Shown here: piece by piece, positions 6,827-22,659 of the stretch
Layout: each line of letters starts with the position of its first letter
Numbering within the stretch: the first letter of the stretch is position 1
Virus record (IMG/VR): IMGVR_UViG_3300034061_003912
Span: 1-27,912 of that record
Length of the DNA stretch: 27,912 nucleotides
Direction: 5' to 3' (one strand)
Source of the DNA: a virus
Position numbers and translations under genes: made by a program
Notes under the pieces: model-generated
Databases searched by the model: none
Seen by the model: the letters and a program-made list of their open reading frames with translations, nothing else
Told to the model about the DNA's origin: nothing

Positions 6827-6850
6827 GGGGGTTGACAAAACCCCCTTTTT
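6827..6850 (+). terminator. Porin terminator fused to promoter
   Basis: A 7-bp stem (6827-6833 with 6839-6845), loop GACAA and five T's. It ends the porin transcript. The 3' part of its left arm and its loop spell TTGACA, the -35 of the next promoter. Confidence 0.92.
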
Positions 6851-6860
6851 GTTGTATTCT
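6832..6860 (+). promoter_or_regulatory. Sigma70 promoter inside terminator
   Basis: TTGACA (6832-6837) within the terminator hairpin, a 17-base spacer that includes the T tract, and TATTCT (6855-6860). It would drive the small gene at 6882 and tRNA-Val. Confidence 0.75.
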
Positions 6861-9339: not shown

Positions 9340-9368
9340 TTGACTAAAAGCAATTTAACTCTTATAAT
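9340..9368 (+). promoter_or_regulatory. Sigma70 promoter
   Basis: TTGACT (9340-9345), a 17-base spacer and perfect TATAAT (9363-9368). It drives the 71-aa gene at 9392 and, on the same transcript, the structured RNA at 9612-9739. Confidence 0.8.
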
Positions 9369-9391: not shown

Positions 9392-9607
9392 ATGTCTCTG
9401 ATTCAAAAATTCAAGAAAGATGTTAGCACTCTTCGCCTTGCTGCTAACGGTGAAATCTACCTTGACGTAAAAAGTCCTAAACTTTATAAAAAAGTTCGAC
9501 GTTATTATGAAAATGAAGGTGTAGTATTTTCTGGAGATCCTCTTGATGATTATGAGATGCTTATGGAGTATCTCTATCAAGATTTAGAAACTATTGAAGT
9601 TGCATGA
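9392..9607 (+). CDS. Small protein, 71 aa, unknown
   Basis: Opens MSLIQKFKKDVSTLRLAANG, then EIYLDVKSPKLYKKVRRYYENEG and an acidic C-terminus. Predicted mixed alpha/beta, soluble. No family recognised. It is the only gene between a strong promoter and the RNA element before gmd, so it may be an early host-takeover type protein (inference). Confidence 0.7.
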   Translation: MSLIQKFKKDVSTLRLAANGEIYLDVKSPKLYKKVRRYYENEGVVFSGDPLDDYEMLMEYLYQDLETIEVA

Positions 9608-9611
9608 TAAA

Positions 9612-9739
9612 ATAGACACGGAGAGTCTATAAAAGAACTGGTGGAGTCAACCTGAATATGCCCGTGATGGAGACACGTTAAAAACCCTGGTGCGGATGGG
9701 ATAACTCCCGCTCAGTTTTACATCTGAATAAAATGTAAA
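9612..9739 (+). ncRNA. Structured leader RNA, candidate wcaG RNA motif
   Basis: The region has no coding frame but many stems: 9612-9617/9625-9630 (6 bp, loop ACGGAGA), 9663-9666/9674-9677 (loop ATGGAGA), 9698-9701/9706-9709, a long-range helix 9634-9640/9713-9719, and 9717-9723/9733-9739, which competes with that helix. GGAGA or GGAGTCA recurs in the loops. The wcaG RNA motif is known from cyanophages in the 5' region of exopolysaccharide genes (including wcaG, the GDP-fucose synthase) and hli genes. This element lies just before gmd-fcl, the same context. The assignment rests on context and foldability; the Rfam consensus could not be checked. Confidence 0.5.
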
Positions 9740-9750
9740 TAAATGCATGG

Positions 9751-9778
9751 AGACAGGTTGTTTAAACCTGTCTTTTTT
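9751..9778 (+). terminator. Terminator before the glycan island
   Basis: A 9-bp perfect stem (9751-9759 with 9765-9773), loop GTTTA and six T's. It would stop the transcript carrying the structured RNA, or act as its expression platform controlling entry into gmd. Confidence 0.9.
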
Positions 9779-9786
9779 GCTATAAT
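9758..9786 (+). promoter_or_regulatory. Promoter overlapping terminator, before gmd
   Basis: Perfect TATAAT (9781-9786) with TTGTTT (9758-9763) exactly 17 bases upstream in the hairpin stem and loop. The -35 is poor, so activity is less certain than at the other composites. Confidence 0.5.
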
Positions 9787-9808: not shown

Positions 9809-10810
9809 ATGAAAGTTGCATTAATAACAGGTATAACAGGTCAAGATGGATCATATCTTGCTGAACTTCTTTTGGAAAAGGGATATGAAGTTCACGGTAT
9901 AATTCGCCGTGCTTCTTTGATCAATACTCATAGAATTGATCATATTTACAATCAGATTAAACTTCACTATGGAGATCTTACTGATTCTACAAACCTTGTA
10001 AGAGTCATTCAGCAAGTTCAACCTGATGAGATTTATAATCTAGGTGCTCAAAGTCATGTAAAAGTATCGTTTGAGATGCCTGAATATACTGGTCAAACTG
10101 ATGGATTAGGAACTCTTCGCATTCTTGAGGCAGTTCGTCTTTTGGGAATGGAGAAAAAAACAAGAATCTATCAGGCATCAACATCCGAAATGTTTGGCAA
10201 GGTTCAAGAAATTCCACAAAAAGAAACTACACCTTTTTATCCTCGTTCACCTTATGGAGTTGCAAAAGTTTATGGATACTGGATCGTCAAAAACTACAGA
10301 GAGTCTTATGGACTACACGCAAGTTCTGGAATTCTTTTCAATCACGAATCCCCTAGAAGAGGAGAAACTTTTGTCACAAGAAAAATCACTCGCGGACTAT
10401 CACGCATTTCAACTGGGCAACAAGATATACTATATCTCGGGAATCTGAATGCGAAACGAGATTGGGGACACGCTAAAGATTTTGTTGAGGCAATGTGGTT
10501 GATGCTTCAGCATGATGAAGCAGATGATTATGTAATTGCTACAGGAGAGCAGTATTCAGTCCGTGAGTTTGTTGAGGCAGCAGCACCTTATTTTGGAATG
10601 AAGATTGCCTGGGAAGGTGATGGATTGGGTGAGGTTGGTATTGATAAACTCACTAAAAGAGAGGTTGTAAGAGTGAGTCCTAAATATTTTAGACCTGCTG
10701 AAGTAGAGACCTTATTAGGTGATGCCACGAAGGCAAAGAAAAAATTAGGTTGGGAACCTAAAATTTCATTTGAACAATTAGTTGAGGATATGTGCATCTA
10801 TGGGCAATGA
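9809..10810 (+). CDS. gmd: GDP-mannose 4,6-dehydratase
   Basis: A 333-aa extended short-chain dehydrogenase that converts GDP-D-mannose to GDP-4-keto-6-deoxymannose, the first step to GDP-L-fucose. The Rossmann motif GITGQDG spans residues 8-14, IIRRAS (31-36) is typical of Gmd NADP binding, the catalytic TSEMFG is at 125-130 and YGVAK at 149-153, and the substrate loop [10 protein letters not shown] at 177-186. Length and motifs are complete. First gene of the glycan island and less AT-rich than most that follow. No mannose-activating genes are present in the window, so GDP-mannose must come from the host or from elsewhere in the genome. Confidence 0.95.
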
Positions 10811-10864: not shown

Positions 10865-11482
10865 ATGAGACAAGAAATTAATGAATGGTGGGAATGTAAA
10901 GGAGATCAAACTTTAAGAGAGTGTTATCCTTTAAATGAATATTCTGTAATTTTTGATCTTGGTGGTTTTGATGGAAATTTTTCCCAAACAATGTATTCAA
11001 AATATAAATCAAACATTTATGTTTTTGAACCACACCCAGAATTTGTTTCTATAATTAGAGATAAGTTTAAAGATAATGAAAAAGTTAAAGTATTTGATTA
11101 TGGAGTTGGTGGAAAAACAGAAAATCTTCAATTAGTATCATGCAATGAATCTTCTTATATTATTCCCCAAACAAAAGTTAACAATACAAGTAATAAAATT
11201 TTTCAAAATATAAGTATTAAATCTTTTAAAAATGTTTATGATGAGATGAAAGTAAATAATATTGATCTTTTGAAAATTAACGTTGAAGGGTCTGAATATG
11301 ATATTATGCAAAACATATTTGATAATGATTTAACCACAAAGATCAATAACTTTCAAATACAGTTTCACAAAATTAATGATAAGTCTGAAAAACTGTTGTT
11401 AGATATAAGAACTGAGCTGTCTAAAACACATAAACAAGATTGGTGTTTTAATTGGGTTTGGGAAAATTGGAGTTTAAAATGA
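10865..11482 (+). CDS. FkbM-family methyltransferase
   Basis: A 205-aa SAM-dependent methyltransferase of the FkbM type: VIFDLGGFDGNFS (about residues 28-40) is the SAM-binding loop, YVFEPHPEF follows, and LLKINVEGSEYDIM (about 138-151) is the family signature. FkbM enzymes O-methylate sugars and similar hydroxyls; within this island a capping or masking methylation of a glycan is likely (inference). A ribosome binding site (AAAGGA near 10849) and an AT-rich TTTAAATA-like late box precede ATG 10865. The stop overlaps the fcl start (ATGA). Confidence 0.85.
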   Translation: MRQEINEWWECKGDQTLRECYPLNEYSVIFDLGGFDGNFSQTMYSKYKSNIYVFEPHPEFVSIIRDKFKDNEKVKVFDYGVGGKTENLQLVSCNESSYIIPQTKVNNTSNKIFQNISIKSFKNVYDEMKVNNIDLLKINVEGSEYDIMQNIFDNDLTTKINNFQIQFHKINDKSEKLLLDIRTELSKTHKQDWCFNWVWENWSLK

Positions 11483-12438
11483 AATATGATTCTAGGATAT
11501 TAGTTGCTGGTGCCTATGGAATGGTTGGCAGAGCAATTGTTAGGAATCTTGAAAGCAAAGGATTTACTAATATCATCAGGGGAACTCGTGATGATGTAGA
11601 TTTTACAGATCAAGATGAAACTGAAAGATATTTCTGTTCAGAAGAACCTGAGTATGTGTTTGTTGCTGCTGCCAAAGTTGGTGGCATTATGGCAAACAAC
11701 AACTACAAGGCAGATTTTCTGACTGAGAATCTTCAAATTCAAACCAATCTTATTCAACAATCTTATAATTTTGGTGTAAAGAAACTGTTGTTTCTCGGTT
11801 CTTCTTGTATCTATCCCAAGTTTGCAACTCAACCAATCACCGAAGATCAGTTGATGACTGGTCCTCTAGAACCCACTAATGATGCTTATGCGATTGCCAA
11901 GATCGCTGGTATTATGATGTGCCAGGCATATCGCCAGCAGTACGGTTTCAACGCCATCTCCTTGATGCCTACGAACCTTTATGGACCTAATGATAACTTT
12001 GATCTGGAAACATCACACGTTCTCCCTGCGATGATTGCTAAGTTTCATTATATGAAAGAGCATGGATATACTATTGATATGGGAGGTCCTTATTATGGTT
12101 CCGTAAAACTTTGGGGTGATGGTTCTGCTATGAGAGAGTTCCTACACGTTGATGATCTTGCAGAAGCATGTTATGTTTGTATGCAGAAATATGATGAGGC
12201 AGAGCATATTAATGTTGGAACTGGTGAAGATGTAACAATTAAAGAACTTGCACATACAATTTCTGAGGTTGTTCATTTTATGGGTGATATTGAGTGGGAT
12301 ACTACAAAACCAAATGGAACTCCTCGTAAAGTTCTTAACGTAGATAAAATTAAATCACTTGGATGGAAATCCAAAATTAGTCTTCGTGATGGTATTGAAA
12401 AAACTTACGAATGGTATAAAAATAATGCTATCGTTTAA
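11479..12438 (+). CDS. fcl: GDP-L-fucose synthase
   Basis: A 319-aa epimerase/reductase that turns the Gmd product into GDP-L-fucose. VAGAYGMVG (residues 9-17) binds NADPH, FLGSSCIYPK carries the catalytic Ser/Cys, and YAIAK supplies Tyr and Lys; the PTNLYGPNDNF segment is typical. Start ATG 11479 overlaps the upstream stop by four bases and gives the expected N-terminus, in preference to the longer frame from 11452. It pairs with gmd, with the methyltransferase wedged between. The middle (about 11860-12010) is visibly GC-richer than either end, which suggests mosaic ancestry. Also known as wcaG. Confidence 0.95.
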   Translation: MKYDSRILVAGAYGMVGRAIVRNLESKGFTNIIRGTRDDVDFTDQDETERYFCSEEPEYVFVAAAKVGGIMANNNYKADFLTENLQIQTNLIQQSYNFGVKKLLFLGSSCIYPKFATQPITEDQLMTGPLEPTNDAYAIAKIAGIMMCQAYRQQYGFNAISLMPTNLYGPNDNFDLETSHVLPAMIAKFHYMKEHGYTIDMGGPYYGSVKLWGDGSAMREFLHVDDLAEACYVCMQKYDEAEHINVGTGEDVTIKELAHTISEVVHFMGDIEWDTTKPNGTPRKVLNVDKIKSLGWKSKISLRDGIEKTYEWYKNNAIV

Positions 12439-13222
12439 TTATCTTGGTAATCTAGGAAGACTTGGAAATCAAATGTTCCAATATGCTTCTTTAAAAGGTA
12501 TTGCGTCAAAGAGAGGTTATGATTTTTGCATTCCTTCAAAGGAACTATTTGGTTTTAAAGATGCAAACGTAAGGTCATCCGATTGCTCTATATTTGATTG
12601 CTTCAATCTTTCAGATGTTCATCAAGAAATTATTCAGCAACAAATTCTTCAGGAAAAAGATTTTAGTTTTGATAAACAACTTTTAAGAAACTGCCCAAAC
12701 AACGTTGATCTTTTTGGTTATTATCAGAGTGAGAAGTATTTCAAACATATTGAAGACGACATACGAAATGACTTTACTTTTAATAAGGATGTTCAAGAAC
12801 TTTCCTTAGAATTTTTTGAAAACTTTGAGAATAATAAAGTCATTTCACTTCATATTCGTAGGGGTGATTATGTCTTAAACCCAAATCATCCTGTGCAAAC
12901 TTTAGAGTATTATAAAAAGTCATTGGAATATTTTGATGATAGACTTCCAGTTTTAGTATTTTCTGATGATGCAGAATGGTGCAAACAGCAAGAACTGTTT
13001 GATTCTGATCGTTTTATGATATCTGAAGGAAATGCAACAGACTTTGATTTATGTTTGATGACATTATGTAAGTATCATATCATTGCAAATAGTTCCTATA
13101 GTTGGTGGGGTTCTTGGTTGGCAAAAAGTGAAAAAACTATTGCTCCTAAAAACTGGTTTGGTGGTGACTGTATAAATTATAATACGCAAGACTTGTATTG
13201 CTCCAATTGGATTGTTATTTAA
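12425..13222 (+). CDS. GT11 alpha-1,2-fucosyltransferase
   Basis: A 265-aa glycosyltransferase that would transfer L-fucose from GDP-fucose in alpha-1,2 linkage, usually to galactose. GT11 motifs are complete: GRLGNQMFQY at residues 11-20, HIRRGDY at 143-149 (the Arg contacts the GDP-fucose phosphates), and SSYSWWGSW at 223-231. Start ATG 12425 overlaps fcl by 14 bases; an earlier in-frame ATG at 12359 lies deep in fcl and is not needed. Directly after gmd and fcl, which make its donor, so the three form a functional unit. Confidence 0.92.
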   Translation: MLSFNYLGNLGRLGNQMFQYASLKGIASKRGYDFCIPSKELFGFKDANVRSSDCSIFDCFNLSDVHQEIIQQQILQEKDFSFDKQLLRNCPNNVDLFGYYQSEKYFKHIEDDIRNDFTFNKDVQELSLEFFENFENNKVISLHIRRGDYVLNPNHPVQTLEYYKKSLEYFDDRLPVLVFSDDAEWCKQQELFDSDRFMISEGNATDFDLCLMTLCKYHIIANSSYSWWGSWLAKSEKTIAPKNWFGGDCINYNTQDLYCSNWIVI

Positions 13223-22457: not shown

Positions 22458-22488
22458 CTCTGTTGCTAAATAAGCAGCAGAGTTTTTT
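22458..22488 (+). terminator. Intrinsic terminator after peroxiredoxin
   Basis: A 10-bp stem with one G-T pair (22458-22467 with 22473-22482), 5-base loop and six T's. The loop region starts TTGCTA and TAGTAT follows the T tract, but at 19-base spacing, so it is at most a weak member of the terminator-promoter set. Confidence 0.9.
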
Positions 22489-22494
22489 AGTATT

Positions 22495-22659
22495 ATGCCA
22501 CGTTGTCAACTGACTAAAGAAATTATTAAATGTGAAGTTCTTAAAATGAAAAGGGATTTGGATAATGAATGGATGAATAAAACTGGATATGATCCAAAAT
22601 GGTTAGCACACCAATACCTTAATAAGGTATTGGATAAGATTGAAGAATACTCATATTAA
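22495..22659 (+). CDS. Small basic protein, 54 aa, unknown
   Basis: MPRCQLTKEIIKCEVLKMKR at the start, then DLDNEWMNKTGYDPKWLAHQ and a helical end. Likely all-alpha and soluble. No family recognised. It begins just seven bases after the terminator T tract and ends at the late promoter before the C39-like gene. Confidence 0.7.
   Translation: MPRCQLTKEIIKCEVLKMKRDLDNEWMNKTGYDPKWLAHQYLNKVLDKIEEYSY

Follow-up and report, generated by a model that had tools for sequence, protein, structure and literature searches.

The stretch analysed here (the window) is the whole of the 27,912-nt IMG/VR record IMGVR_UViG_3300034061_003912, virus DNA whose relatives are T4-like cyanophages (Kyanoviridae) and whose source is a phage of a marine cyanobacterium. 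Eight tRNA genes are followed in the window by a 71-aa open reading frame (ORF), the RNA under study, gmd and further sugar genes, and the isolate S-SM2 has a comparable layout, in which wcaG precedes a long series of polysaccharide genes. The features of the locus are as follows.

9340-9368, plus strand: predicted sigma-70-like promoter of the upstream transcription unit, TTGACT-N17-TATAAT, 11 of 12 consensus matches
9392-9607, plus strand: 71-aa ORF, PHROG 552, with its TGA stop codon (9605-9607) immediately 5′ of the array
9613-9652, plus strand: unit 1 (GGA type), stem UAGAC 9613-9617/GUCUA 9625-9629, loop ACGGAGA, tertiary pair C9619-G9635, UGGU 9639-9642, linker GGAGUCAACC
9663-9691, plus strand: unit 2 (GGA type), occupying the P1 position of wcaG, stem CGUG 9663-9666/CACG 9674-9677, loop AUGGAGA, tertiary pair U9668-A9684, UGGU 9688-9691
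9688-9711, plus strand: exact wcaG core, UGGUGCGGAUGGG-N-CCCGC, with hairpin P2 (GGG 9698-9700/CCC 9707-9709)
9712-9737, plus strand: 3′ H-type pseudoknot (wcaG P3), S1 UCAG 9712-9715/CUGA 9724-9727, L1 UUU, S2 UACAU 9719-9723/AUGUA 9733-9737, L3 AUAAA
9749-9777, plus strand: intrinsic terminator, stem GGAGACAGGUU/AACCUGUCUUU and T run
9758-9786, plus strand: likely gmd promoter lying over the terminator, TTGTTT-N17-TATAAT, weak -35 and perfect -10
9809-10810, plus strand: gmd, GDP-mannose 4,6-dehydratase (Pfam GDP_Man_Dehyd, E = 4e-156), which opens the polysaccharide cluster
11452-12438: epimerase gene, a downstream sugar gene
12359-13222: GT11 glycosyltransferase gene, a downstream sugar gene

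A first-pass annotation had described the interval before gmd as a structured leader and candidate wcaG-like riboswitch. Its structural description was partly borne out: positions 9608-9781 fold at -47.6 kcal/mol, compared with -34.9 ± 3.8 kcal/mol for dinucleotide shuffles (z = -3.4), the strong terminator lies at 9749-9775 and is followed by a T run, and the TATAAT is present at 9781-9786. The recurring GGAGA loops that it reported, at 9620-9624 and 9669-9673, belong to a conserved unit that is present in two copies. It overlooked the pseudoknot formed by UCAG (9712-9715) and CUGA (9724-9727), the two GGA units in tandem, the stop codon bordering the array on its 5′ side and the fact that promoter and terminator overlap. 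Judged by its pairing, the window RNA is an array of three units in tandem, two of them GGA-loop hairpins and the third an H-type pseudoknot.

With Rfam at the gathering threshold, the tRNAs alone were matched in the window. At a lax threshold, the wcaG model (RF01761) gave the sole credible match, at 9662-9752 (31.5 bits, E = 4.7e-4); the search proposed earlier with this model did yield a match, but one under the curated cut-off of 42 bits, and the window RNA is a divergent wcaG relative and not a member by Rfam's rule. The proposed link to wcaG held up in the homologous loci, which scored up to 104 bits and showed strong covariation, so that both a match and covariation in homologous leaders were found. 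Among the homologues detected by blastn, DSL-LC03, with the 71-aa ORF upstream and gmd downstream, carries a full wcaG at 103.7 bits and S-SRM01 one at 101.2 bits, and wcaG was found at 55.6 to 76 bits in S-H35, S-B64, S-RIM4, S-MS29, and DSL-LC02. The 71-aa gene also stands upstream of wcaG in the other loci of its seven-member family besides DSL-LC03, and at the six loci of this family outside the window, a TTGACA..TATAAT-like promoter precedes either the ORF or the tRNA gene in front of it.

Likenesses between the window RNA and RF01761 comprise the core UGGUGCGGAUGGG..CCCGC, P2, P3, the T4-like cyanophage setting and the neighbouring polysaccharide gene. The P1 hairpin of the model is absent from the window, where a GGA-loop unit stands instead, as it does in about nine other listed loci, and this replacement is a main reason for the low Rfam score. 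P3 is present together with its pseudoknot, UCAG/CUGA and UACAU/AUGUA being kept by compensatory changes. The 3′ flank GUGGCG is missing and AAUAAAUGCAUG is found there; loci L003, L136, and L160 have lost it as well. Furthermore, the window has one more unit, 5′ of the part that the model covers, and its RNA is placed between a stop codon and a terminator, whereas the 5′-UTR position of RF01761 does not clearly apply here. Across the listed loci, the 3′ flank takes two forms, GUGGCGUGCAUG and GUGGCGAGCCUG. Public ORF annotations overlap wcaG at L001 (2806-2911), L358 (33389-33583), and L006 (3270-3476), and the gmd N-terminus in DSL-LC03 (WJZ48046.1), the ORF SSM2_190 in S-SM2, and the ORF QPX48260.1 in S-SRM01 were probably mis-called inside the RNA.

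Viral loci were gathered with two exact patterns, which returned at least 142 core matches, two of these by chance. Since the loci came from exact pattern scans, conservation of the core is partly by construction; pairing was no selection criterion in A1-A4. Mutual information over 125 distinct sequences brought out P1, P3 and an additional pairing, the last of which indicated that P3 is an H-type pseudoknot. Its general form is an S1 of 4 pairs, an L1 of UUU, an S2 of about 7 pairs, no L2, and an L3 of UNAAA. S1 occurs as CUGG/CCAG, CAGG/CCUG, CCAG/CUGG, CCUG/CAGG, CGAG/CUCG, and CUAG/CUAG and, in the window, as UCAG/CUGA, which is preserved through double compensatory changes. Over 51 distinct sequences of this pseudoknot, 99.8% of cells are paired, with double changes in 9 of the 11 pairs, and the covariation score of the pseudoknot (P) unit was 0.636, compared with 0.235 when shuffled and at most 0.168 with slid partners. 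P1 is in most cases a pseudoknot like P3.

The two stems that the first-pass annotation took to be mutually exclusive fared differently in this comparison. The stem 9717-9723/9733-9739 is conserved and corresponds to S2 of the pseudoknot, whereas 9634-9640/9713-9719, although fully paired in the window, is complete in 1 of 106 related listed loci, that is, in the window alone. The latter stem is no sign of a switch, because its 3′ strand coincides with UCAG, the conserved strand of the pseudoknot, plus the UUU loop.

Array units share a plan in which a pseudoknot or a GGA-loop hairpin is followed by UGGU or UGGC and then by a linker hairpin. One to three extra units often stand 5′ of the region covered by the wcaG model, each of which opens with a 4-bp hairpin whose loop reads NYGGN.. 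and continues through an A-rich spacer and CUGGU to a linker hairpin, and at least 221 occurrences of such units were counted in the listed viral loci compared with 7 in a Markov control of equal size. When units were chosen irrespective of the stem, the strands were complementary in 110 of 119 cases in the listed loci, against 35 after permutation. In the GGA unit, the second base of the loop and the fourth base before UGGU form a Watson-Crick pair (C-G or U-A), which holds in 45/45 and 37/37 distinct sequences of the two spacer classes, with covariation of 0.698 versus 0.210 and 0.428 versus 0.158. A covariance model of the unit (35 nt), trained without the window sequences, recognized both copies in the window, at 9613-9647 (51.4 bits, E = 1.9e-14) and at 9662-9696 (42.7 bits, E = 9e-12). 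A third type of unit, with an S1 such as GUCC/GGAC, a stem GUCGG/CCGAC and then UGGUG, was seen in the place of P1 at L134 1060, L146 2196, L176 681, and L189 4071 (positions on the array strand).

Thus defined, wcaG makes up the 3′ portion of a modular, multi-unit array in at least about 140 viral loci. The parses vary among the listed loci (GGP, P, GP, PP, GG, and others), and arrays devoid of the wcaG core exist (L019, L067, and L045). In the nine and ten records searched, there was one array locus per genome, and the unit model found no array in 2 of 10 genome records searched. A pattern scan of 84,980 bacterial species genomes returned at least 119 stretches, mostly chance matches in GC-rich genomes; L305 was the sole match with a real P3 among those listed. 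This contig, filed as a Rhodobacteraceae MAG, carries the wcaG core together with homologues of two cyanophage ORFs, one of them the 71-aa gene, and it is probably a misbinned cyanophage contig.

Array position was then referred to the neighbouring genes. The start of the array was offset from the upstream stop codon by a median of -2 nt in 94 parsed arrays from the listed loci, and 57 of the 94 lay between -25 and +15 nt relative to the stop codon of an ORF no shorter than 40 aa, compared with 146 of 1,400 random positions. The final codons of the upstream ORF sometimes fall within the first hairpin (e.g., ..DDEDTESL-stop), and at S-SRM01 and locus L068, two consecutive ORFs are each followed by a unit.

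An intrinsic terminator follows the core in 105 of the 142 listed core loci, nearly always 60 to 90 nt away, and in 82 of these 105 a TATAAT-like box lies no more than 22 nt from the T run. At least 88 array loci have TTG, as a -35 element, within the terminator hairpin and N15-19 (mostly 17) before a TATAAT-like -10; the window sequence reads GG-TTGTTT-N17-TATAAT, ending at 9786, and S-CREM1 has a TTGACA-bearing hairpin, 17 nt, TATAAT and then tRNA-Met. Since the terminator hairpin overlaps the -35 of the next promoter, the gmd transcript likely begins 3′ of the RNA. The loci that lack the terminator layout lead into tRNA genes or straight into an ORF, and in about 10 listed loci without a terminator, the array stands directly 5′ of an ORF; a 5′-UTR role of the array is possible there. 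Terminator-promoter composites without an array occur elsewhere in the window, at 22-56, 6832-6860, and 22463-22496, and the composite is thus a general cyanophage feature.

Downstream of the array, sugar genes are the commonest neighbours. The next gene belongs to an SDR/gmd-like family in 49 of 129 listed loci, and glycosyltransferases, a cytidylyltransferase, GT11, and a mannose-phosphate-isomerase-like cupin are found as well. At S-H35, S-B64, S-MS29, and S-CREM1, the RNA precedes tRNA or hli genes. In total, 24 upstream and 26 downstream gene families occur in 62 combinations over 122 listed loci. Given these many combinations, the single locus per genome and the tRNA and hli neighbours, the downstream link to sugar genes can be one of synteny.

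S-CREM1 also carries, near wcaG, another cyanophage RNA, manA (RF01745), for which Rfam gave no match in the window. There, manA (10215-10429; L359 1967-2181) exactly fills the gap from tRNA-Leu, which ends at 10213, to tRNA-Asn, which starts at 10429, an odd site for a 5′-UTR element. By eye, no units common to manA and the array were seen in the S-CREM1 sequence.

These observations bear on what the array does. Weinberg et al. (2010; PMC2864571) proposed wcaG as a probable cis-regulator and riboswitch upstream of exopolysaccharide and high-light genes, with which the sugar-gene neighbours seen here agree, and the first-pass annotation placed such a riboswitch in the leader of gmd. A nucleotide sugar or other metabolite would then control read-through of the terminator from the upstream unit into the polysaccharide operon, in keeping with the predominance of sugar genes downstream in the terminator class and with a terminator close behind the RNA at a near-constant distance. 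We regard this reading as unlikely and do not uphold the riboswitch in the gmd leader: the alternative stem is not conserved, the likely gmd promoter overlaps the terminator and follows it, and the array abuts the upstream stop codon. Units vary in number and kind, the conserved core can be absent, and the RNA persists in front of tRNA and hli genes, where strong copies stand with no adjacent sugar gene. The antiterminator signal is marginal as well, the pairing of wcaG with its own terminator arm averaging -10.10 kcal/mol compared with -9.83 (SD, 0.12) for exchanged arms; with relatedness left in, this excess of about 2 SD was not counted as support for an antiterminator. Tandem units in which the unpaired letters UGGU and GG(A) are conserved, together with a discrete 3′ end at the terminator, would also suit an array that, free or as a stable 3′ UTR, acts in trans by binding a phage or host RNA-binding protein or by pairing with host mRNAs, and the GGA loops are reminiscent of CsrA-type sponges. 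There is, however, one locus per genome, and GGA is not universal, as GGGA and GGUA occur and P units are devoid of it; a CsrA-type site does not fit for this reason, and a sponge of that kind was dropped as the main reading. Action in trans in general appears distinctly unlikely.

A function chiefly at the DNA level has its own precedent in PeSLs, the composite promoter-terminator motifs known in T4-like phages (Arbiol 2010 and Comeau 2014, as relayed in PMC4503421). As far as that source outlines them, the window is similar in having a terminator stem-loop fused with an early-type promoter between genes and in its many neighbour combinations, and it differs in that the composite is preceded by a long structured RNA array, present once per genome. 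The array would on this account be part of a PeSL-like cassette supplying homology for gene shuffling between phages, with which the 62 family combinations and the composites that lack arrays, three of them in the window, agree. We consider this very improbable, since the covarying changes alter the DNA yet keep the RNA pairing, which homology alone would not select, and the array occurs at one locus per genome instead of many. Finally, a first unit at or overlapping the stop codon might suggest that the pseudoknots affect translation termination of the upstream ORF or its coupling to the next gene; with unrelated upstream families, an offset that varies from -25 to about +35, and no gene in the same transcript to couple to at terminator-class loci, such a role is exceedingly improbable.

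An array that runs from the stop codon of the upstream gene to the terminator probably forms the tail of the mRNA of this gene and not a sensor for gmd. We therefore favour, with moderate confidence and from sequence comparison, the reading that the array serves the 71-aa gene as a structured 3′ UTR and as the boundary of its transcript, and is not a metabolite sensor of gmd. The upstream message would start from the promoter at 9340-9368, be translated to the stop codon at 9605-9607, run on into the array and end at the terminator at 9749-9777. A separate gmd transcript would arise from the promoter whose -35 lies inside the terminator hairpin and whose -10, TATAAT, comes after the T run, and the gmd mRNA would not contain the array. 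As a compact 3′ end, the array may protect the early mRNA of the upstream gene against 3′ exonucleases and, as a boundary, may prevent upstream transcription from entering the gmd operon. The predominance of sugar genes downstream in the terminator class is not accounted for by a role confined to the upstream message, save by synteny of the one locus per genome.

Tandem 3′-UTR pseudoknots are familiar from RNA viruses. The upstream pseudoknot domain of tobacco mosaic virus consists of consecutive H-type pseudoknots right 3′ of the stop codon, and in some cases a tRNA or a tRNA-like structure comes next. The likeness to the arrays is one of layout alone; there is no sequence relation, and the arrays belong to a DNA phage. 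In the literature searched, there was no account of the units 5′ of wcaG, of the stop-codon placement or of the adjoining terminator-promoter overlap, and the pseudoknots may already have been drawn in the 2010 wcaG figure (Weinberg et al.).

Since 2010, wcaG has stood as a probable riboswitch that lacks a ligand. Should it instead form the end of a modular 3′-UTR array, ligand searches guided by the downstream gene would be misdirected, the Rfam model would cover part of the RNA and miss divergent or core-less arrays, and the structure of the message end could be tested in isolated phages such as S-PM2, S-SM2, and S-CREM1. More broadly, and tentatively, wcaG might be no stand-alone riboswitch but the 3′ end of a large cyanophage class of modular pseudoknot arrays, in which at least three kinds of unit are exchanged, gained and lost and which extend from stop codons to terminator-promoters or tRNA genes, and this class might constitute a dedicated 3′-UTR system by which phage messages are protected or marked in the infected cell.
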